A stretch of DNA of 64,000 bases. Source: Planktothrix rubescens CCAP 1459/22 (GTDB lineage Bacteria; Cyanobacteriota; Cyanobacteriia; Cyanobacteriales; Microcoleaceae). Positions within the stretch are counted from its first letter, which is position 1. The number at the start of each line of letters is the position of its first letter. Shown here piece after piece: positions 9,572-51,393 of this stretch. The translations under genes and the position numbers were made by a program. The stretch spans positions 1,420,001 through 1,484,000 of the forward strand of contig LR882958.1 in the NCBI GenBank assembly GCA_904830895.1. The letters are read 5' to 3'. A model generated the notes under the pieces. The model did no database searches, was not told where the DNA came from, and saw nothing but the letters and a program-made list of their open reading frames with translations.

Positions 9572-9802
9572 ATGTCTCAATGTCATGTTTGTGGCGCAAC
9601 AGAATTTCACACAGAACAAGTCAGTGAGATTTTCCAAATTAATGGAAAATTCTATCTGGTAGAAAAAATTCCTGCTCAGGTCTGTTCTAGGTGCGGTGAA
9701 GTTACATTTAGTCGGGAAACGACGGAAAATATTAGAAAGATGTTACATGGAGAATTACAACCTATTAAATCTATTAATTTGGATGTATTTGCCTACCAAT
9801 AG
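9572..9802 (+). CDS. YgiT/MqsA-type zinc-finger antitoxin-like protein
   Basis: The 76-residue product begins MSQCHVCGATEFHTEQV and carries a second CSRCGEVTFSRETTENI motif. Two CxxC pairs form the N-terminal zinc-binding fold of YgiT/MqsA proteins. In this family the zinc domain binds the toxin and a DNA-binding helix-turn-helix usually follows; only the short form is present. It lies 20 bases after the truncated DUF4258 gene, so the pair looks like a toxin-antitoxin module that lost its toxin. An AAAGGAG site precedes the ATG. Confidence 0.8.
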   Translation: MSQCHVCGATEFHTEQVSEIFQINGKFYLVEKIPAQVCSRCGEVTFSRETTENIRKMLHGELQPIKSINLDVFAYQ

Positions 9803-9808
9803 CTTCTT

Positions 9809-10174
9809 TTATTCCATTTCTTTGGGTTGGTTTTCTTGAGGTAATAATGCTTTTAAGGCTTTGACTTCCTCCTGTAATAATTTAACCTGTTCTAATAATT
9901 CTTGATTACTCTCGGTTAAAACTTTGGTTTGACTACTTAAATAGGGGTCACTTTCCCACCAATTAATCCCAATTTCCCTAGCTTTATCGACGGAAGCAAT
10001 TAACAAACGAATTCTAATATTTAGGAGTTCGGTGGAACCCACGGAAACGGAAATATCCCCAGCGATGACAATACCCTTATCTAAAACCCTTTCTAAAATA
10101 TCAGCTAAACTCGATCCTTGGGTCGATGTGGGAACACCCCGTTGTATATTTGATGGACGTTGCTGTGAGTTCAT
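9809..10174 (-). CDS. gvpJ: gas vesicle protein GvpJ
   Basis: A 121-residue protein whose core ([19 protein letters not shown]...[16 protein letters not shown], about 22-78) is homologous to GvpA. The extra C-terminal heptad-like tail (about 90-121) is charged and rich in Gln, Glu and Leu. This matches GvpJ, a minor shell-related protein needed for vesicle nucleation or assembly. Its ATG overlaps the gvpN stop in an ATGA junction, so the two are translationally coupled. It is the last gas-vesicle gene visible; gvpK, gvpF/L, gvpG, gvpV and gvpW are not in the window and must lie elsewhere if the strain makes vesicles. Confidence 0.88.
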
Positions 10175-11367
10175 GGTTGAATTAATTCTCCTTGTTTGTT
10201 CACCGCAAAGAAACGATTATCCTGCTGTTTCAGATGTCCTTGTTTTAATAAAGAGCGCAATACATTAGTGGTTTGGACTCGATTTAATCCTAACGCTACT
10301 TCAATTTCTGAAACCCTGGCGCTGGTGGTTTTCTGTAAATATTGATAAACTTGTTCTTCAATTTCTAAGGAGTTATTTTCGGTTAATTGAGTTTCTGATA
10401 GGGGTAAAAAACTGTTAGTTGATGTGTCACCATCGGTTAATACGGTTTTGATCACTTTTTCTAATTTATTCTGAGCTTCTGTTAGGGATAGGTTGGTACG
10501 GGATAATAAAATATCGGCACAAACTTTAATAAAATCCTGATTATTTTCCTGAATAGAAATATCATGTTCATGACAGATTTTGGCAATAATCAATCCGGGT
10601 CTTAATCCCGATGCTTTATCAATATGGGGTCGGGCAGCTTTACCATTTTGAACGGGTTTAATTTCTTTTTTTTGGGTGGTTATTTCTAAATAAATTTTGA
10701 CTATTTCAATAATGTTTTTGGCATCTTCGGGGGAAATTCCGATTTTTTGAATTAAAATTTCCTGCTGGGTTTCGTCATCTGGTTCGGGCATATCAATAGT
10801 AATTAACCGATCTAATAACGCATCTTGAGTCCCATAAACTCCACAATATTCTTCGGGGTTTGAGGTAAAAATAGCTCTAAAATGGGGGTTAACTCGAATA
10901 TATTCTGAACGGCTATTATTCGGAGGCAGCACTAATAATTTTTCTTCTAAAGCAGACAGTAAAACGTTATTCACCTCTGGACGGGAACGGTTAAACTCAT
11001 CATAAACCAGGGTAAATCCTTCTTTACACGCCAAGGTCAGACGAGAATCAATCCAATTTTGTCGTAATTCATCTTCTAATTTAACAACACTATGAATAAA
11101 ATTATCAACAACTTTCTTGCGAGTATAGCCTAGTTGGTTGCCAATTAAATCGGAGGATTTGAGTTCATCATCCCCAAAAATTAAAACGATGGGACGGTTT
11201 AATAAATCGGCTAAGTGCATCGCCAGGGTGGTTTTTCCGGTTCCGGCTGGCCCCCGTAAGTGCAGAGAAAAGCCACTCTGAAGATACCTCAAGGCTCTAA
11301 TTGTAAGTTGTTCAATGGTTGGAGTATTAACAAAGCCTTTAGGACGAGCTTGAAGCACGGTAGTCAT
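10171..11367 (-). CDS. gvpN: gas vesicle AAA+ ATPase GvpN with a C-terminal winged-helix-like extension
   Basis: The 398-residue protein has a MoxR-type AAA+ domain: Walker [10 protein letters not shown] (39-47), Walker [13 protein letters not shown] (about 118-129) and the sensor segment [13 protein letters not shown]. GvpN is an ATPase required for efficient enlargement of gas vesicles. After the AAA+ part, residues about 335-398 read as a small winged helix ([20 protein letters not shown] followed by LLKQGHL and a beta wing). I do not recall this on every GvpN, where lengths nearer 300 are usual. The gene lies 117 bases after gvpC and overlaps gvpJ by ATGA, so it belongs to the same operon. 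Confidence 0.92.
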
Positions 11368-11484: not shown

Positions 11485-12207
11485 TTAACAGGAATATAAA
11501 CGCGATGGAATAGAGCGTTGCGGGGTAATCGCTTTTCGCGGTTTTCGGTGGGAACTCCCCCAAACTGTCTGTTGAAGTTTGAGGTGATAGTCTTGCAGTT
11601 CGGCGCGAAATACCCCTAAATCCTCAAATAACTTCTGAACAGCGTCTTTTCTTTCCGTCCGACTCTGTTGGAGTTGTTGTTGTAATTGTGCGGCCATTTG
11701 CTGGTGCAGAATATCTAACTCCCCTAAATATTCTTCGACTTCCCGATATAGGGTTTGACGAAAAATAGCTAAGTCCTCAAGTAAAGTTTCCCTAGCTTCT
11801 AGGCGCTGTTTCTGATAATTAGCTAACAGATCCGTTACCCGATATTCTAGGTCTTCCCGAAATTCAGATAATTGCTGATGCAGTTGGGCTGCGACCTGTG
11901 AGCGTTCTTCGATGGTTTGCTGCAAAAACTCACCCACTTCCTGGGATAATTGCTGGATAAAGTTTTCCAGTTGTTCTCGCTGTTGCTGGGCTACCCACAA
12001 ACGCTCGGTGCTGATGTTTGTTAATAATTCTTGGGTTTGTTGTTGTACACCCGTGACAAACCCCTGTCGAGATTCTTGATCATCTAAAGCCTGATTTTGG
12101 CGCTCTTGTTGCCAGAGGGATAGGGTGGTTTGAACTTGCTGTTGCCGTTCTTGAACTCCCTGTTGGCGTCCGATACGATCCTGTTGCCACTTGTCTTTTA
12201 AAGCCAT
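11485..12207 (-). CDS. gvpC: gas vesicle outer reinforcing protein GvpC, long variant (about 28 kDa)
   Basis: The 240-residue protein is almost wholly helical and Gln/Glu-rich, with roughly 33-residue repeats (each with an LxxFRxxL or LxxFxQQL-type centre). GvpC binds the outside of the GvpA shell and strengthens it. Compared with the second gvpC at 13309-13827, it has 73 extra residues after QERQNQA (LDDQESRQGF to LHQQL), i.e. two more repeats. Its last 19 residues (from KPRKAITPQR) also differ completely from that copy's tail. From general knowledge of Planktothrix, a longer GvpC of this size is associated with weaker vesicles. The start MALKDKWQQ is shared by both copies. Confidence 0.93.
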   Translation of the reverse strand: MALKDKWQQDRIGRQQGVQERQQQVQTTLSLWQQERQNQALDDQESRQGFVTGVQQQTQELLTNISTERLWVAQQQREQLENFIQQLSQEVGEFLQQTIEERSQVAAQLHQQLSEFREDLEYRVTDLLANYQKQRLEARETLLEDLAIFRQTLYREVEEYLGELDILHQQMAAQLQQQLQQSRTERKDAVQKLFEDLGVFRAELQDYHLKLQQTVWGSSHRKPRKAITPQRSIPSRLYSC

Positions 12208-12386
12208 AATTTTTTTGAAACCCTCGTGTCAGTGGGTTGTGCATTTCTGGGCATTGGGTATGGGCAGTGAATTGCGTTGACTATACTTACACCCTGAATT
12301 ATTAGTGGGTAAAACTTTATCCCAAACCATAATGAGTGAAGCGTTCTGCTTTTTTTGCTCCATACCCGTTGCCTATTCCATCAATC

Positions 12387-12605
12387 TTAGACCGAAGGAA
12401 CAGCCGCCTGTGCGGTTAAACCAACGGCTTCTGCGTACTTGAGATAGGTTTCAACAGAAGCGATCACGATTCTTGCTTCTATGGATAGAAGCTCGATTCC
12501 AACGAGGGAAACCCGTACCCAAGCGTCAATCACAATGCCTTTATCTAAGATCCGATCGATAACTTCGGCCAGACTGGAGGATGAGTTTACTTTTTCAACG
12601 GCCAT
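12387..12605 (-). CDS. gvpA: gas vesicle shell protein GvpA (copy 4, in transcription order)
   Basis: The 72-residue protein begins [20 protein letters not shown] and is identical to the copies at 14007-14225 and 14586-14804. GvpA is the small hydrophobic protein that polymerises into the ribs of the gas vesicle wall. AAGGAG stands 10-11 bases before the ATG. It is followed after about 180 bases by the long gvpC. Identity between the copies points to gene conversion or recent duplication. Confidence 0.97.
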
Positions 12606-12738
12606 GAGTCTATTACTCCTTTTTGGTGGAAAGAACTGGGTATATGCTTATAGAGTTCTTTAGGCTAATCATACCCCGAAAGTTGCTAATTTTGATGTTT
12701 GTTTGTTACTTATTTTTACAATTTCTCAATCTTTATTT

Positions 12739-12812
12739 ATCCCTGGGGTTGATCCAGGGTCGCAGGTTGAGGCACTCCGGGGTTAACGGTGGATTGGGGT
12801 TTAATAGAATGG
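12739..12812 (-). repeat. untranslated gvpC 3'-end fragment between gvpA copies (OmegaC-like)
   Basis: About 70 bases match the last 70 bases of the short gvpC gene (13309-13382) nearly exactly, but no gvpC reading frame is attached. A second copy lies at 14359-14432. Planktothrix gas-vesicle clusters are known to carry such a fragment, called OmegaC, between gvpA genes; I identify it from that memory plus the match seen here. It is a scar of unequal crossing-over between gvpA-gvpC units. Confidence 0.8.
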
Positions 12813-12965
12813 GGAATGGCTTGGGATCGGCTTTGGGTATGGGCAGTAAATTGCGTTGACTATACTTACACCCTGAATCATTAATGGGTAAAACTTTATC
12901 CCAAACCATAATGAGTGAAGCGTTCTGCTTTTTTTGCTCCATACCCGTTGCCTATTCCATCAATC

Positions 12966-13180
12966 TTAGACCGAAGGAACAGCGCCTGTGCGGTTAAACC
13001 AACGGCTTCTGCGTACTTGAGATAGGTTTCAACAGAAGCGATCACGATTCTTGCTTCTATGGATAGAAGCTCGATTCCAACGAGGAAACCCGTACCCAAG
13101 CGTCAATCACAATGCCTTTATCTAAGATCCGATCGATAACTTCGGCCAGACTGGAGATGAGTTTACTTTTTCAACGCCAT
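12966..13180 (-). pseudogene. gvpA: gvpA copy 3, disrupted by four 1-base losses (possible sequence error)
   Basis: The sequence aligns with the intact gvpA copies but is 215 instead of 219 bases. All four losses are one-base contractions of G or C runs (for example GGCC to GCC right after the ATG), and three more of the same kind follow upstream (to about 13250). The first puts a stop five codons in, so as written no GvpA is made. No substitution is seen inside the gene. This pattern is more typical of base-calling error in one read than of natural decay. Confidence 0.8.
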
Positions 13181-13308
13181 GAGTCTATTACTCCTTTTTG
13201 GTGGAAAGAACTGGTATATGCTTATAGAGTTCTTTAGCTAATCATACCCGAAAGTTGCTAATTTTGATGCTTGTTTGTTACTTATTTTTACAATTTCTCA
13301 ATCTTTAT

Positions 13309-13827
13309 TTATCCCTGGGGTTGATCCAGGGTCGCAGGTTGAGGCACTCCGGGGTTAACGGTGGGTTGGGGTTTAATAGGATGTCGGTGGGAACTCCCCC
13401 AAACTGTCTGTTGAAGTTTGAGGTGATAGTCTTGTAGTTCGGCGCGAAATACCCCTAAATCCTCGAATAACTTCTGAACAGCGTCTTTTCTTTCCGTCCG
13501 ACTCTGTTGGAGTTGTTGTTGTAATTGTGCGGCCATTTGCTGGTGCAGAATATCTAACTCCCCTAAATATTCTTCGACTTCCCGATATAGGGTTTGACGA
13601 AAAATAGCTAAGTCCTCAAGTAAAGTTTCCCTAGCTTCTAGGCGCTGTTTCTGATAATTAGCTAACAGATCCGTTACCCGATATTCTAGGTCTTCCCGAA
13701 ATTCAGAAGCCTGATTTTGGCGCTCTTGTTGCCAGAGGGATAGGGTGGTTTGAACTTGCTGTTGCCGTTCTTGAACTCCCTGTTGGCGTCCGATACGATC
13801 CTGTTGCCACTTGTCTTTTAAAGCCAT
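13309..13827 (-). CDS. gvpC: gas vesicle outer reinforcing protein GvpC, short variant (about 20 kDa)
   Basis: The 172-residue protein shares the first 40 residues and the long helical middle with the 240-residue GvpC, but lacks a 73-residue (219-base) segment, so it has two fewer 33-residue repeats. It ends in a proline-rich tail (HPIKPQPTVNPGVPQPATL) absent from the longer copy. The coding DNA of this tail is the source of the OmegaC fragments. The start MALKDKWQQ is 179 bases after the gvpA at 14007-14225. GvpC of this size is, from what is known of Planktothrix, linked with intermediate vesicle strength. Confidence 0.93.
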   Translation of the reverse strand: MALKDKWQQDRIGRQQGVQERQQQVQTTLSLWQQERQNQASEFREDLEYRVTDLLANYQKQRLEARETLLEDLAIFRQTLYREVEEYLGELDILHQQMAAQLQQQLQQSRTERKDAVQKLFEDLGVFRAELQDYHLKLQQTVWGSSHRHPIKPQPTVNPGVPQPATLDQPQG

Positions 13828-14006
13828 AATTTTTTTGAAACCCTCGTGTCAGTGGGTTGTGCATTTCTGGGCATTGGGTATGGGCAGTGAATTGCGTTGA
13901 CTATACTTACACCCTGAATTATTAGTGGGTAAAACTTTATCCCAAACCATAATGAGTGAAGCGTTCTGCTTTTTTTGCTCCATACCCGTTGCCTATTCCA
14001 TCAATC

Positions 14007-14225
14007 TTAGACCGAAGGAACAGCCGCCTGTGCGGTTAAACCAACGGCTTCTGCGTACTTGAGATAGGTTTCAACAGAAGCGATCACGATTCTTGCTTCT
14101 ATGGATAGAAGCTCGATTCCAACGAGGGAAACCCGTACCCAAGCGTCAATCACAATGCCTTTATCTAAGATCCGATCGATAACTTCGGCCAGACTGGAGG
14201 ATGAGTTTACTTTTTCAACGGCCAT
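14007..14225 (-). CDS. gvpA: gas vesicle shell protein GvpA (copy 2)
   Basis: Encodes the same 72 residues as the copies at 12387 and 14586, including the [20 protein letters not shown] core. The flanking DNA on both sides also repeats: the start-to-start distance to the next gvpA upstream is 579 bases, and to copy 4 downstream 1620 bases. It is followed by the short gvpC. Forms the ribbed protein shell of the vesicle. Confidence 0.97.
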
Positions 14226-14358
14226 GAGTCTATTACTCCTTTTTGGTGGAAAGAACTGGGTATATGCTTATAGAGTTCTTTAGGCTAATCATACCCCGAA
14301 AGTTGCTAATTTTGATGCTTGTTTGTTACTTATTTTTACAATTTCTCAATCTTTATTT

Positions 14359-14432
14359 ATCCCTGGGGTTGATCCAGGGTCGCAGGTTGAGGCACTCCGG
14401 GGTTAACGGTGGGTTGGGGTTTAATAGAATGG
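14359..14432 (-). repeat. untranslated gvpC 3'-end fragment (OmegaC-like), upstream copy
   Basis: Matches the tail of the short gvpC and the fragment at 12739-12812, and sits at the same place relative to its flanking gvpA genes. Together the two copies define the period of the tandem duplication. Confidence 0.8.
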
Positions 14433-14585
14433 GGAATGGCTTGGGATCGGCTTTGGGTATGGGCAGTGAATTGCGTTGACTATACTTACACCCTGAATTA
14501 TTAGTGGGTAAAACTTTATCCCAAACCATAATGAGTGAAGCGTTCTGCTTTTTTTGCTCCATACCCGTTGCCTATTCCATCAATC

Positions 14586-14804
14586 TTAGACCGAAGGAAC
14601 AGCCGCCTGTGCGGTTAAACCAACGGCTTCTGCGTACTTGAGATAGGTTTCAACAGAAGCGATCACGATTCTTGCTTCTATGGATAGAAGCTCGATTCCA
14701 ACGAGGGAAACCCGTACCCAAGCGTCAATCACAATGCCTTTATCTAAGATCCGATCGATAACTTCGGCCAGACTGGAGGATGAGTTTACTTTTTCAACGG
14801 CCAT
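14586..14804 (-). CDS. gvpA: gas vesicle shell protein GvpA (copy 1, first gene of the operon)
   Basis: The first gvpA in transcription order, 72 residues and identical to copies 2 and 4. The shared 5' flank, with AAGGAG before the ATG, continues upstream only to about 14946, where it breaks off inside an OmegaC-like sequence (CCCTGGG) and a mobile-element remnant begins. Because the same 5' flank precedes every copy, each gvpA may carry its own promoter, which would explain how the operon tolerates the break. Confidence 0.97.
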
Positions 14805-15555
14805 GAGTCTATTACTCCTTTTTGGTGGAAAGAACTGGGTATATGCTTATAGAGTTCTTTAGGCTAATCATACCCCGAAAGTTGCTAATTTTGATGCTTG
14901 TTTGTTACTTATTTTTACAATTTCTCAATCTTTATTTATCCCTGGGAATGAATTTGTGCATTGACACTCTCAGGTCTGAAGACGCGCTCGATTCTTGGTT
15001 CAACGAAACCACTTAATCAAAGTACCTTGCAGTGCTTTAACCAGAGGTGGGATTCTCCCCAAGCTAAAGAGCGGGTATGCCCTACCCTATTCGCATTAAT
15101 GCGAGTTCTTTTTTGCTTAAAAACTGTTCGTCTAGCTCCCATGAATCTTTTACCCACTGCTGGGGGAAAACTAGAACTTTGCAGTAGAACCCTATAGATT
15201 CAATTGTCAAGGTTCAGCGTCTTGCCGTTAGGCGACTAGGTTTTTATACAGGTTGTTTACCTTTTCCTGTTACTGGATATATTAACATAGATTGAAGAAA
15301 TATTCACGGGGGTTAAAACCCCCTGAGTCGCTTTTCATCTCAGGTCTGAAGACACTGAGTTTTCAAGCTCCCAGACTTATGTTATAATTAATTCCGATTT
15401 CAAAAATTGTTGCATAAAAAACCAAAAAATGTTATAATCATTTGCGCCGTTTAAGTTATCAGTTAAAAATCAAAAATAAAGAGTGGAGATTTATATTTTA
15501 TCTTTACTGATAACTGATAGCTGATTATGTTGTGCCCAAATCACCGGATTAAATA
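14805..15555. other. gene-free region between gvpA and rpaA
   Basis: From right to left it holds the rpaA upstream region (about 15370-15555, with an imperfect inverted repeat TTATCAGTTAAA ... TTTACTGATAA at about 15456-15525), a tnpB-less IS200/IS605-like element (14961-15364) and the gvpA 5' flank (14805-14946). An open frame of 78 codons at 14961-15197 lies wholly in the element and looks like nothing known. It should contain divergent promoters for gvpA and rpaA. Confidence 0.6.
14961..15364 (-). mobile_element. tnpB-less IS200/IS605-like element (remnant or non-autonomous copy)
   Basis: Both ends carry the same sequence, CTCAGGTCTGAAGAC, at 14969-14983 and about 15341-15355. Just inside the second is a perfect 16-base palindrome GGGGGTTAAAACCCCC (15308-15323). 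Read on the minus strand the element ends in CCTGAGAGTGTCAA, the type of terminal sequence I know from cyanobacterial tnpB elements. No transposase or RuvC motif remains. In the interior, minus-strand short frames such as MGARRTVFKQKR may be the end of an eroded tnpB, or the DNA for its guide-type RNA. Orientation and limits are inferred from one copy. Confidence 0.5.
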
Positions 15556-16335
15556 ATGCCCCGGATATTAGTCATAGATGATGACCCCGCAATTTCGGAA
15601 CTGGTAGCCATTAACTTAGAAATGGCTGGTTATGAAGTGAGCCAAGCAGAAGATGGGATTAAAGGGCAAGCCCTGGCGATGCAATTGTTGCCAGATTTAA
15701 TTATTTTGGATTTAATGTTGCCGAAGGTGGACGGGTTCACCATTTGCCAACGTTTACGCCGGGATGAACGCACGACAGATATTCCGGTGTTGATGTTAAC
15801 TGCATTGGGACAAACCCAAAACAAAGTTGAAGGGTTTAATTCGGGGGCCGATGATTATTTAACCAAACCTTTTGAGTTAGAAGAAATGTTGGCAAGGGTG
15901 AGGGCTCTGTTGCGAAGAACTGATCGCATTCCCCATGCGGCTAAACATAGCGAAATTCTCAGTTATGGCACTTTAACCTTAGTCCCTGAAAGGTTTGAAG
16001 CGATTTGGTTTGAGACCACCGTTAAATTGACCCATTTGGAATTTGAACTTTTACATTGCTTGCTGCAACGTCATGGTCAAACCGTTGCGCCTAGTGAGAT
16101 TTTAAAAGAAGTTTGGGGTTATGACCCCAATGATGATATCGAGACGATCCGAGTTCATATTCGCCATTTACGCACAAAAATGGAACCCGATCCCCGTCAT
16201 CCTCGCTATATTAAAACCATCTACGGTGCAGGATATTGTTTGGAACTTCCCACGGGCAAGGGGAAACCCGATGATCTCGCCCCCCCTACGGAGTCCTCTA
16301 TAGACGGAAATGGAGCCAAGGGGAAGAAGAAATAG
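15556..16335 (+). CDS. rpaA: OmpR-family response regulator RpaA
   Basis: The 259-residue protein has a receiver domain ([19 protein letters not shown], phospho-acceptor Asp52 in LDLMLP, switch Lys in TKPF) and a winged-helix DNA-binding domain (about 135-235, with [18 protein letters not shown] and the wing [13 protein letters not shown]). The sequence matches RpaA rather than RpaB. RpaA is the clock output regulator that receives phosphate from SasA and also affects phycobilisome-photosystem association. The gene is divergent from gvpA, with about 750 bases between. The short tail after residue 238 is low complexity and probably variable. Confidence 0.9.
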
Positions 16336-19287: not shown

Positions 19288-20328
19288 TCAATCTTCGTTA
19301 ATAGCAATTTCAAGATTTTTTAATTCTTCTACAATTGTTTCAAATTTAGGGGCATTTCCTAGCATCATACCTTGCATATCTTGGTAGTCCTTTTTAATAG
19401 TCTGAAGCAATTTACCCTCTGGGACTAAATGAAAAGATCCTGGTATCGCCTGATCAAATTTCATCCAAGCTTTGTTGAAAAATAGTTGATTATGCTGATG
19501 AACATTCTCTCTCAATTTAGGATCGGAAATTGCTTTTAGGCCAAACTCAGTTTTATAAATCATCGCCACGTCATAATAATGACGAGAGATTCGTTGGCGA
19601 TCGCTGGGTAAGCGTCCTTCGTCTCTATGTCCACAATACCAACCATGCAAAATCATCACTTTATCCCAGAAGGTTCTTTCTGGTCTAATAGTGATGATAT
19701 TAGGTATTGAAAAGTCCCGGTCTGAAAGTATTTGGTTAATGAAAGGTTTTATGATAAGTTGTTCGTGAGGATCGAGTGCTGAACGACCACCGCCTTCAAG
19801 TTTCACGCGAGGCTGAATATACGCATCGGTACCCTCTGCAAATAGGCTGGGATAATGAAATAAAAGAGTTGATTTGTCTCGATCTTCTGTATCTGTTATT
19901 ACGTTACATTCAGGTGCTAAAGTTGAAGCTATAGCCTCTAAATCTTGCCTCAGTTTGTTACAGATATATTTAGAAGTGGCTTCCATTATATTTTCTGAAC
20001 GGCGCTTTCGTTCTTTCCCAGATATTTCTGGTGTTGTGGGATCTTTGCTTTCATCAAAACCGATATCCTTCGAGAAAACGGTAAAATCAACATCTTCAGA
20101 GAAACGATTGATTAAGCTATATCCTTTTGACAGAGAGGTTCCACCTTTGAATAGAAGCCGAGGATGATCGAAATTAAAGCCATTGTAGAGAATATCAAGG
20201 ACTAAACAAACCCAAAAATCTTTCTCTACATAGCTTGATCGAGTATCAAGATTCTCGGCTTCAGCTTCAAAGACATCTTGGCGCTCCTGTTTAGATAATT
20301 CAAGAAAGTGTTTAAATTCCTGATTCAT
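19288..20328 (-). CDS. AbiEii/AbiGii-family nucleotidyltransferase toxin
   Basis: The 346-residue protein carries the AbiEii nucleotidyltransferase signature: KGGTSLSKGY (about 60-70) followed by FSEDVDFTVF, then the conserved late segment PERTFWDKVMILHG. AbiEii proteins are type IV toxins that use nucleotides and, in some cases, modify tRNA; they block growth on phage infection. The start overlaps the stop of the antitoxin gene by one base (TAATG), so the two are coupled. All core residues are present, so this module looks intact, unlike most toxin-antitoxin pairs in the window. Confidence 0.88.
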   Translation of the reverse strand: MNQEFKHFLELSKQERQDVFEAEAENLDTRSSYVEKDFWVCLVLDILYNGFNFDHPRLLFKGGTSLSKGYSLINRFSEDVDFTVFSKDIGFDESKDPTTPEISGKERKRRSENIMEATSKYICNKLRQDLEAIASTLAPECNVITDTEDRDKSTLLFHYPSLFAEGTDAYIQPRVKLEGGGRSALDPHEQLIIKPFINQILSDRDFSIPNIITIRPERTFWDKVMILHGWYCGHRDEGRLPSDRQRISRHYYDVAMIYKTEFGLKAISDPKLRENVHQHNQLFFNKAWMKFDQAIPGSFHLVPEGKLLQTIKKDYQDMQGMMLGNAPKFETIVEELKNLEIAINED

Positions 20329-48297: not shown

Positions 48298-50244
48298 ATG
48301 GCAGTTCGTGGCCTAGCGGCTCCTCCAACCCCTTGGTCGAAGAACTTGGCAGAGCCGAAAATCGACCCAACGGCTTATGTACATTCTTTTTCTAATATTA
48401 TTGGTGACGTTCGGATTGGTGCTCATGTCTTAGTAGCCCCGGGTACTTCTATTCGAGCCGATGAAGGTTCACCCTTTGCCATCGGGGAAAATAGCAATAT
48501 CCAAGACGGCGTGGTGATTCATGGCTTAGAAGAAGGCCGTGTCAAAGGGGATGATGGTAAATCTTACTCCGTATGGGTAGGTAAGAATTGTTCCCTCACC
48601 CACATGGCCCTAATTCATGGCCCAGCCTATGTGGGAGATAATTGTTTTATCGGATTCCGTTCTACGGTATTCAATTCCAGAGTCGGGAATGGTTGCATTG
48701 TGATGATGCACGTTTTAATTGAAGACGTGGAAATTCCCCCAGGAAAATATATTCCCTCCGGTTCAATTATCACCAATCAACAACAGGCCGATCGCTTACC
48801 CAACGTCACGGATGCGGATTTGAGCTTTGCTAACCACGTCATCGGGGTCAATCAATCCCTAAAAGCGGGTTATCAGTGTTCTGAAAACTCCTCTTGTATT
48901 AACCCGATTCGTAATGAAGGGACTGGAGTTGGTAATGGTAGTGGTCGCGATCGCTCCTATGCCTATACCGGAAGTTCTAATTTAGCCCCTGAAATTGTGC
49001 AGCAAATCGGGGATCTGTTAGCCAAGGGCTACAAAATTGGCACGGAACACGCCGATACCCGTCGTTTTCGCACCGGATCTTGGCGCAGTGGCGCTCCGAT
49101 CAATGCTAAAACCACCGGGGAAGTCGTTGCAGCCTTAGAAGCTGGCCTCAGAGATCATGGCGGAGAATATGTCCGTCTGTTGGGGATTGACTCGAAAAAT
49201 AAACGTCGTGTCCTAGAAGAAATCATTCAACGTCCCGATGGCAGCGTAGCCCCAAAATCCAGTAATGGCAAGGTCAGTGCTTCGGTGGCTACTTCTGCGG
49301 GTTCGGCCAGTGTTGCCAGTTCGGGTATCGGGGGACAAATTGGCGATTTGTTGGCCAAAGGCTACAAAATTGGCACAGAATACGCCGATGTTCGTCGCTT
49401 CCGTACCGGATCTTGGCGTGGTGGCCCCAGTATCTCCGGTTCAGGGGTAGCAGATATTCTTTCTAAATTAGATGCGATCGCTAGTGAGCATCAGGGGGAA
49501 TATGTGCGTTTAATTGGAATTGATCCCAAAAACAAACGCCGTGTCCTAGAAGAAATTATTCAGCGTCCCGATGGCCGCGTAGCCACAAAAGCTGGCACTG
49601 CTAAGGTCAGCACTTCGGTGACTACGGCTTCGGGTTCAGCCAGTATTGCCAGTTCCGGTCTCGGCGGACAAATTGGCGATCTGTTAGCCAAAGGTTACAA
49701 AATTGGCACAGAATACGCCGATGTTCGTCGCTTCCGTACCGGATCTTGGCGTGTTGGCCCCAGTATCTCCGGTTCAGGGGTAGCAGATATTCTTTCTAAA
49801 TTAGATGCGATCGCTAGTGAGCATCAGGGGGAATATGTGCGTTTAATTGGAATTGATCCCAAAAACAAACGCCGTGTCCTAGAAGAAATTATTCAGCGTC
49901 CCGATGGCAAAGTAGCGCCAACGGCTTCGGCTTCGGCTCCGGCTTCCACCAGTCGTCCTAGTGCAGCAACCGTCAGCAGTGGCAAACTAGATAATGGTGT
50001 TGCGGATCACGTTCGGGGTCTGTTAGCCAAAGGCTACAAAGTCGGCACAGAACACGCGGATGCTCGCCGCTTCCGTACCGGATCTTGGAACAGTTGTGCT
50101 CCGATTCAATCTAACAATATCTCCGAAGTGATGGCAGCTTTAGATGGTTGCTTAAACGAACATCGTGGGGAATATGTACGGTTAATTGGGATCGACTCAA
50201 AAGCCAAGCGTCGGGTACTGGAGGAAATTATCCAACGTCCCTAA
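48298..50244 (+). CDS. ccmM: carboxysome assembly protein CcmM with four Rubisco-small-subunit-like repeats
   Basis: A 648-residue protein. Residues about 1-205 form the gamma-carbonic anhydrase-like domain (left-handed hexapeptide repeats with [32 protein letters not shown]). Four SSU-like domains follow at about 230-314, 344-425, 454-536 and 567-648, each with RRFRTGSW and GEYVRL(L/I)GID. They gather Rubisco into the core by contacting its holoenzyme. Repeats 2 and 3 are nearly identical at DNA level with a period of 333 bases. A shorter form starting internally before the first SSU-like domain is known in the family; I see no clear internal start here. Confidence 0.97.
49324..49910 (+). 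repeat. 333-bp intragenic tandem duplication in ccmM
   Basis: The unit starting at 49324 recurs 333 bases later with only a few differences over its first 250 bases (for example GGTGGC versus GTTGGC in the TGSWR region). It covers one SSU-like domain and its linker, exactly 111 codons. Confidence 0.85.
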
Positions 50245-50661
50245 CATTCCTCTATAAAGGGGATTGAGAATTAAAACGCAACGCTAGAGGTTCGAGTAAA
50301 GGTCAGCACCCCGCGCTGAAGCGACGGGGCTTCATGCCTCACCGACCGTATTAGCTGACCAGCCTAAGTCTTAACTGACTACTTTTTTGAGTCAAGACAC
50401 CCTGCGGATGCGCGAGCCGCGTCCCTGGCTCTGTCGTTAGTGGTTAAACATCTTTATCGGGTTAAGGAAGTGCTGCTAACCTAACAAGCTCTTAAAACAT
50501 TGGCGTTCGCGTAGCGTGTGCGAAGCACTCAGCTAACTTTACCCTAGAAATAGGTGTTAGGAGACAACCATATCTCCACAGAGGGGCAACCATACCCCTC
50601 TACCCCGAAAGGGGAAATGTAAAGCCTAACTAGAAGTTAGGGGTTTCTACCCATTTTTCTG
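50245..50661. mobile_element. tnpB-less IS200/IS605-like remnant between ccmM and ccmN
   Basis: No gene fits these 417 bases. They contain a hairpin CCCCGCGCTGAAGCGACGGG (about 50311-50331), several short palindromes, a GCGTTCGCGTAGCGT-type repeat (about 50503) and, at the far end, a hairpin CCTAACTAGAAGTTAGG followed by GGTTTCTACCC (about 50624-50651). Two distinct subterminal hairpins without terminal inverted repeats are the form of IS200/IS605 ends, and tnpB-derived remnants look like this. The call is structural only. It splits the ccm operon, whose ccmN start lies 10 bases after the last hairpin. Confidence 0.45.
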
Positions 50662-51393
50662 ATGAACATATCGCCACCGCAACTCCTAAACCCAGATGTT
50701 TATGTGAGTGGCGATGTCACAATTGATCCCGGGGCTACCCTAGCACCTGGGGTGATCCTACAAGCGGCAGCCGATGGTCAGCTTAGAATTGCTGCGGGGG
50801 TTTGTATCGGAAGGGGGGTGATTATTCAGGTTTACCAAGGTATCCTAGAGATAGAGACAGGTGTAGTCTTGGGGTCAGGAGTATTAATTTTAGGGGCAGG
50901 AACCCTTGGGGAAAATGCCTGTATTGGTTCAGAAACAACGATCTTGGAGAGTTCTATTGCATCTCAACAAGTTGTTGCCGCGGGATCTTTGATTGGGGAT
51001 CGCTCTCGTGTATTAGAACCCGAATTAGAACCCGAACAGGTATCTCCGCCACCAGAACTTACTCCTGAACCCACGATCACCTCTCCTTGGTTTGAGGAGC
51101 CTGAGCCGATTTTAGAGTTGGTATCCTTTGCCCCTGAACCGGAGAATACCCCGGTATTGGAAGAAATCACGGCTCAACCATCGGAGGTTTTATTCATTCC
51201 TGCTGAAACTGAAACGGTCATCCCCTCTAGCCCAGAAAAAACGGAGGAAACGGCTCTGGTTCCCCAGTCCCCAGCATCCTCGGAACTGTCGTCTGGGCCC
51301 ATTCCTCCGGTAATTTATGGGAAAGAAAATCTGAGTCGGTTATTGGATACCTTGCTTCCCCATCGCAAAGCTTTCAATAACTCCCAGAGTTGA
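50662..51393 (+). CDS. ccmN: carboxysome assembly protein CcmN
   Basis: The 243-residue protein has an N-terminal left-handed beta-helix of hexapeptide repeats (VYVSGDVTIDPGATLAPGVI, about 1-120), a long Pro/Glu-rich linker and a C-terminal amphipathic encapsulation peptide (KENLSRLLDTLLPHRKAF). CcmN binds CcmM by its N-terminus and the CcmK shell by the peptide, linking core to shell. It is on the ccm strand, but the mobile remnant upstream means expression may depend on read-through or a new promoter. Confidence 0.95.
   Translation: MNISPPQLLNPDVYVSGDVTIDPGATLAPGVILQAAADGQLRIAAGVCIGRGVIIQVYQGILEIETGVVLGSGVLILGAGTLGENACIGSETTILESSIASQQVVAAGSLIGDRSRVLEPELEPEQVSPPPELTPEPTITSPWFEEPEPILELVSFAPEPENTPVLEEITAQPSEVLFIPAETETVIPSSPEKTEETALVPQSPASSELSSGPIPPVIYGKENLSRLLDTLLPHRKAFNNSQS

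Follow-up and report, generated by a model that had tools for sequence, protein, structure and literature searches.

A putative lineage-2-type gas-vesicle gene array carrying the gvpC20 and gvpC28 alleles in Planktothrix rubescens

Why should one cyanobacterial genome hold two genes for GvpC, the gas-vesicle protein, in two different lengths, and what separates them? In Planktothrix, a smaller GvpC goes with higher pressure resistance, according to passages of PMC4349496 and PMC3534634. The two genes lie in one array within a 64,000-nucleotide stretch of Planktothrix rubescens CCAP 1459/22 (hereafter the window), whose genome (G000) is 5.70 Mb in five contigs. We read this locus, with a probability of about 0.87, as a lineage-2-type array that arose by tandem recombination and carries gvpC28 together with gvpC20, both probably expressed and expected to influence the strength of the vesicle.

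All genes of the array are on the minus strand, in the order gvpA, OmegaC, gvpA, gvpC (172 aa), gvpA (frame-broken), OmegaC, gvpA, gvpC (240 aa), gvpN and gvpJ (Table 1). Both the gene order of the two blocks, as read from the ORF list and the repeats, and the start-to-start distances between gvpA copies (579 bases for gvpA1–gvpA2, 575 for gvpA3–gvpA4, 1624 for gvpA1–gvpA3 and 1620 for gvpA2–gvpA4) agree with the original prediction, which was made from the letters of the window. The label OmegaC is carried over from that prediction. Fragment 1 is preceded by the first 133 nt of a gvpA–gvpC spacer, a prefix in common with the gvpA2–gvpC20 spacer. The three intact gvpA genes are identical at 219 of 219 bases, and the GvpA-family assignment made by PF00741 and NF006874 for gvpA1 extends to gvpA2 and gvpA4; the length of 219 bp is also that of gvpA in the Planktothrix gvp set listed in PMC7091528. 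The gvpJ-like product scores 62.6 with the haloarchaeal GvpJ model, below its cut-off of 125. On one side the array is flanked by a two-component response regulator gene (15556-16335), and on the other by a small antitoxin-like ORF, beyond which a CemA-family gene lies. This ORF (9572-9802), of the YgiT/MqsA zinc-finger type, lies beside gvpJ on the opposite strand.

Table 1. Positions of the array genes and associated features (window coordinates unless stated otherwise)
Feature	Position	Strand	Basis or remark
MITE-like repeated non-coding insert, ~425 bases, upstream of gvpA1	14961..15385		boundaries approximate
gvpA1, intact, 72 aa	14586..14804	-	PF00741 and NF006874 above cut-off; DNA identical to gvpA2 and gvpA4
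OmegaC fragment 1	14357..14427	-	final 71 nt of a gvpC20-type 3' end, stop included; exact suffix match to gvpC20
gvpA2, intact	14007..14225	-	DNA identical to gvpA1
gvpC20, 172 aa, 20.4 kDa, without the 73-residue segment; tail IKPQPTVNPGVPQPATLDQPQG	13309..13827	-	alignment; length as published (519 bp)
gvpA3, frame-broken as written	12966..13180	-	one-base losses: four coding, three in the leader (up to ~13247)
OmegaC fragment 2	12737..12807	-	one mismatch to the last 71 nt of gvpC20
gvpA4, intact	12387..12605	-	DNA identical to gvpA1
gvpC28, distal-tail form, 240 aa, 28.6 kDa; tail KPRKAITPQRSIPSRLYSC	11485..12207	-	TIGR02641 match
219-base segment, residues 41-113 of gvpC28, missing from gvpC20	11869..12087	-	alignment and TIGR02641
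gvpN, AAA ATPase	10171..11367	-	TIGR02640, 364.5 bits (cut-off 266.8)
gvpJ-like, GvpA family	9809..10174	-	PF00741; name GvpJ from position and likeness
GvpF/L-family loci (genome coordinates, outside the window)	G000:C1:658641-661374, 801176-801859, 3581334-3582047		

Aligned with each other, the two gvpC genes, of 519 bp (172 aa) and 723 bp (240 aa), show one 219-nt gap, and the shared core differs at 2 positions in 444 nt, which bears out the claim that the copies differ by a precise 219-base (73-residue) segment plus the tail. The five 28-type genes compared (one of this genome, four of G001) do not differ in this segment. Against TIGR02641 (NCBIfam), GvpC28 scores 72.9 bits (curated cut-off 18.8) in two stretches of 33 residues each, residues 51-83 and 84-116, the second of which overruns the 219-base segment by 3 residues; the 73-residue segment alone scores 80.6 bits. 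A 33-residue periodicity of GvpC28 was also evident, given that its mean BLOSUM62 self-score at lags 33 and 66 exceeds the lag 10-99 maximum of every shuffle (0 of 1000 reach it). GvpC20 is unlisted for TIGR02641 at E up to 1, a range in which the HMMER filters drop most matches above 0.1, and the Pfam search matched neither gvpC. Since the 219-base segment holds both model-recognised repeats, its deletion leaves GvpC20 without any; lacking a TIGR02641 match, GvpC20 owes its name solely to being the deletion allele of GvpC28. The short gene has lost two canonical 33-residue repeats through a single in-frame 219-base deletion, and gvpC28 keeps them.

Both genes correspond to known alleles. Of the published gvpC16, gvpC20 and gvpC28 (Beard 1999, 2000, through citing papers; PMC7091528), gvpC20 is given as 519 bp and gvpC28 as 738 bp in Table 1 of PMC7091528; the former is an exact length match to the short gene here, and the difference, 738 minus 519, equals the 219 bp found here. 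The short gene encodes a product of about 20 kDa (20.4 kDa) and corresponds to gvpC28 minus 219 bp, and the product of the long gene is of about 28 kDa (28.6 kDa), with the 219-bp section present. However, the long gene, at 723 bp, does not have the 738 bp of the CYA 29 allele, and thus represents a 28-type variant rather than the CYA 29 allele itself; G001 has both forms. Passages of Pancrace 2017 (PMC5259702) likewise describe a 28.6 kDa form, degenerate 33-residue repeats and a truncated GvpC20.

The tails of the two genes had been called unrelated, which proved wrong as to their origin: they align to different parts of the 339-340 aa GvpC of other Planktothrix. This long protein, with a proline-rich linker and a C-terminal domain, is found in seven of eight other Planktothrix genomes; the eighth, a draft (G005) with an unknown base and a shorter GvpC end, was not counted as whole. 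In G004, the sole genome tested in this respect, the C-terminal domain and the C-terminus of GvpN from the window share 49% identity over 53 residues. GvpC40 of benthic strains carries a GvpN-like stretch according to passages of Pancrace 2017 (PMC5259702). It is with the later part of the linker that the gvpC20 tail aligns, and the tail of the 738 bp gvpC28 of G001 does the same. The distal gvpC28 tail begins with a match to the first part of the linker, then leaves the frame and continues in DNA that corresponds to the last codons of the ancestral gene; it is because of this tail that the gene has 723 bp rather than 738 bp. As both tails map to one ancestral C-terminus, they are different deletion products and not unrelated sequences. 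Judged from these alignments, the two gvpC tails are alternative truncations of an ancestral proline-rich linker plus GvpN-like domain.

The frame of gvpA3 is broken in the sequence as given. Over 273 columns, gvpA3 and its leader differ from the intact copies by seven one-base losses, of which the leader has three and the coding part four; each shortens a run of C or G, and there is no substitution. Of 283 bases, 56 lie in C or G runs at least two bases long, so that all seven would land there at random with a probability of about 1.2e-5, a value that natural slippage would raise. As every loss falls in a C/G run and no substitution accompanies them, a sequence error is likelier than a pseudogene, and the break is probably an error rather than a biological feature. 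A real pseudogene, leaving three working gvpA copies, fits the letters as they stand and the preference of natural slippage for runs, but it is unlikely in view of the uniform C/G-run contractions. Furthermore, five other stretches aligned to G001, about 10.7 kb in total, have only two other one-base gaps besides five longer ones. We also count against a pseudogene that, according to a passage of PMC9366434, PacBio reads served to finish thirteen Planktothrix genomes, in some cases with gaps closed by PCR and Sanger sequencing, although G000 is perhaps not among them. With this patch of probable base errors inside the array, the exact count of units depends on the assembly.

The upstream units of the two gvpC genes, each consisting of leader, gvpA and spacer, show 1 difference in 535 bases. 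Given this near-identity, similar expression of both genes would be expected, and both GvpC forms are probably expressed, each behind its own gvpA with a near-identical leader and spacer. Transcription of GvpC length variants inside single filaments is reported in the title of Becker 2005, as given in a reference list. These two points are the support here for the claim that one strain makes both forms. Conversely, one gvpC might be functional and the other a mere passenger of recombination, as the lack of any model-recognised repeat in GvpC20 would allow. This reading appears quite improbable, since gvpC20 has an unbroken frame and, apart from the deletion, nearly the sequence of gvpC28, the allele is published from many strains (passages of PMC4349496), and the Becker title reports length variants as transcribed. 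A simple promoter scan gave no excess (7 found, against a mean of 7.8 in shuffles). Ten terminator-like sites were found against 4.3 expected, all ten on the plus strand, opposite the gvp genes. An attenuator in the gvpA4–gvpC28 spacer is not claimed, the folding being barely better than that of shuffles (z -2.04; 6 of 200 as good).

Other elements occur around the array. Near the gvp leader, between gvpA1 and the response regulator gene, the insert resembles a MITE or the remnant of an insertion element. Counting the query, at least 49 sequences of the genome match it (of 93 first-look candidates, 40 were scored); among the matches listed, one other is 94% identical over nearly the full length and many cover only the two ends. 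G001 lacks the insert at the corresponding position. An AbiEii-type nucleotidyl transferase gene (PF08843, 128.8 bits) lies at 19288-20328. Between the carboxysome genes ccmM (48298-50244) and ccmN (50662-51393), an interval with no ORF of at least 100 aa, there is a HEARO RNA at 50302-50542 (RF02033, 118 bits).

How the array was formed can be approached from the block comparison and from related genomes. The 219-nt gap, the tail and the seven one-base gaps aside, the two blocks are separated by 5 substitutions ahead of the 219-nt gap and 2 in the gvpC core, a likeness far beyond chance. Our genus search covered ten genomes, G000 included, and G001 is the only other one of the same species. 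Its array reads gvpA-OmegaC-gvpA-gvpC28(distal tail)-gvpN-gvpJ, followed by gvpA-OmegaC-gvpA-gvpC28-gvpA-gvpC28-gvpA-gvpC28(distal tail)-gvpN-gvpJ, where the OmegaC calls rest on the ORF list and repeats rather than on a separate alignment. Thus G001 has four 28-type genes, two of 738 bp and two of 723 bp, and no gvpC20. The original prediction of a whole-block tandem duplication holds in so far as the multiplication is real, but duplication of blocks is not the sole process, as single gvpA-gvpC units multiply too in G001. One clean block duplication as the only process was rejected on the same grounds, along with the second gvpN-gvpJ of that genome. The array would rather have grown by tandem recombination of gvpA-gvpC and gvpA-OmegaC units. 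That the assembly wrote one block twice is very improbable, for although repeats are difficult to assemble and the second block holds the 273-column patch of seven one-base losses, all in C/G runs and with no substitution, the blocks are set apart by the 219-nt segment, the tail and another 7 substitutions, the array of G001 is even longer, and both gvpC alleles are published as co-occurring (passages of PMC4349496 and PMC3534634).

In G001, the gvpC28-gvpN-gvpJ cluster end is present twice, about 6.2 kb apart (L025:6225-8635 and 12428-14838). In none of the eight other genomes searched, which are drafts of 70-570 contigs where repeats can collapse, did the searches reveal another close gvpA on the contig of the first or another close gvpC; a more distant second gvpC (30-36% identity) is on another contig in three of the eight. 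The GvpF/L-family genes of G000 are also multiplied, with two close copies together, one far away and a weaker fourth, all outside the window. Gas vesicle proteins are named among duplicated genes in a passage of PMC9366434.

The coexistence of gvpC20 and gvpC28 had been offered as new, yet passages of PMC4349496 and PMC3534634 describe it as the typical state of lineage 2, and gvpC28 as almost the only allele in lineages 1 and 1A (49 of 51 strains in PMC4349496). Chromosomes are of 4.7-4.8 Mbp in lineage 1 and 5.4-5.6 Mbp in lineage 2, as stated in PMC9366434. The largest contigs, 5,464,396 bases (5.46 Mb) in G000 and 4,780,238 (4.78 Mb) in G001, fall inside the lineage 2 and lineage 1 ranges, respectively, and each genome thus has the allele set expected for its size class. 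From chromosome size alone, we infer that G000 is a lineage-2-type Planktothrix agardhii/rubescens strain. The array is a known system with a small added detail. We found no paper on the full array in the literature searched, most subscription journals being outside its scope. In Pancrace 2017, a passage states that assembly quality barred an analysis of cluster organisation, whereas here the organisation was read in two five-contig genomes.

Both GvpC forms would bind along the GvpA ribs. The GvpC of Anabaena flos-aquae likewise forms a 33-residue repeat helix along these ribs and reinforces the shell (passages of PMC10185304 and PMC9994262); it has five repeats and is encoded by one gene, in contrast to the two recognised repeats of the long form and none of the short form here. 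One Anabaena repeat spans about four GvpA subunits along the rib (PMC10185304, in part), and on this basis the 73-residue loss would cut the footprint by roughly nine subunits. That GvpC variants track vesicle strength in Planktothrix, as the original prediction stated, with vesicle width and collapse pressure following the length of GvpC, is described in passages of PMC4349496, PMC3534634 and PMC7091528. Vesicles with the short form would be expected to be narrower and stronger, those with the long form wider and weaker, and a consequence for buoyancy may follow from the two lengths. A more speculative and rather doubtful proposal sees the locus as an array of recombining cassettes: the gvpC20 and gvpC28 units, expressed from near-identical upstream units, would by their ratio and order tune a mixed GvpC belt on each vesicle and so grade its strength, and the distal tail would mark whichever gvpC comes last before a gvpN.

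In summary, this array in a near-complete genome shows how the two gvpC alleles sit together. The added detail is that the short allele lost both model-recognised repeats and that the tails, as aligned, were cut in two different ways from one ancestral end. The length of GvpC may determine the depth to which Planktothrix can be mixed before its floats collapse, and may thereby help decide which strains bloom in deep lakes.
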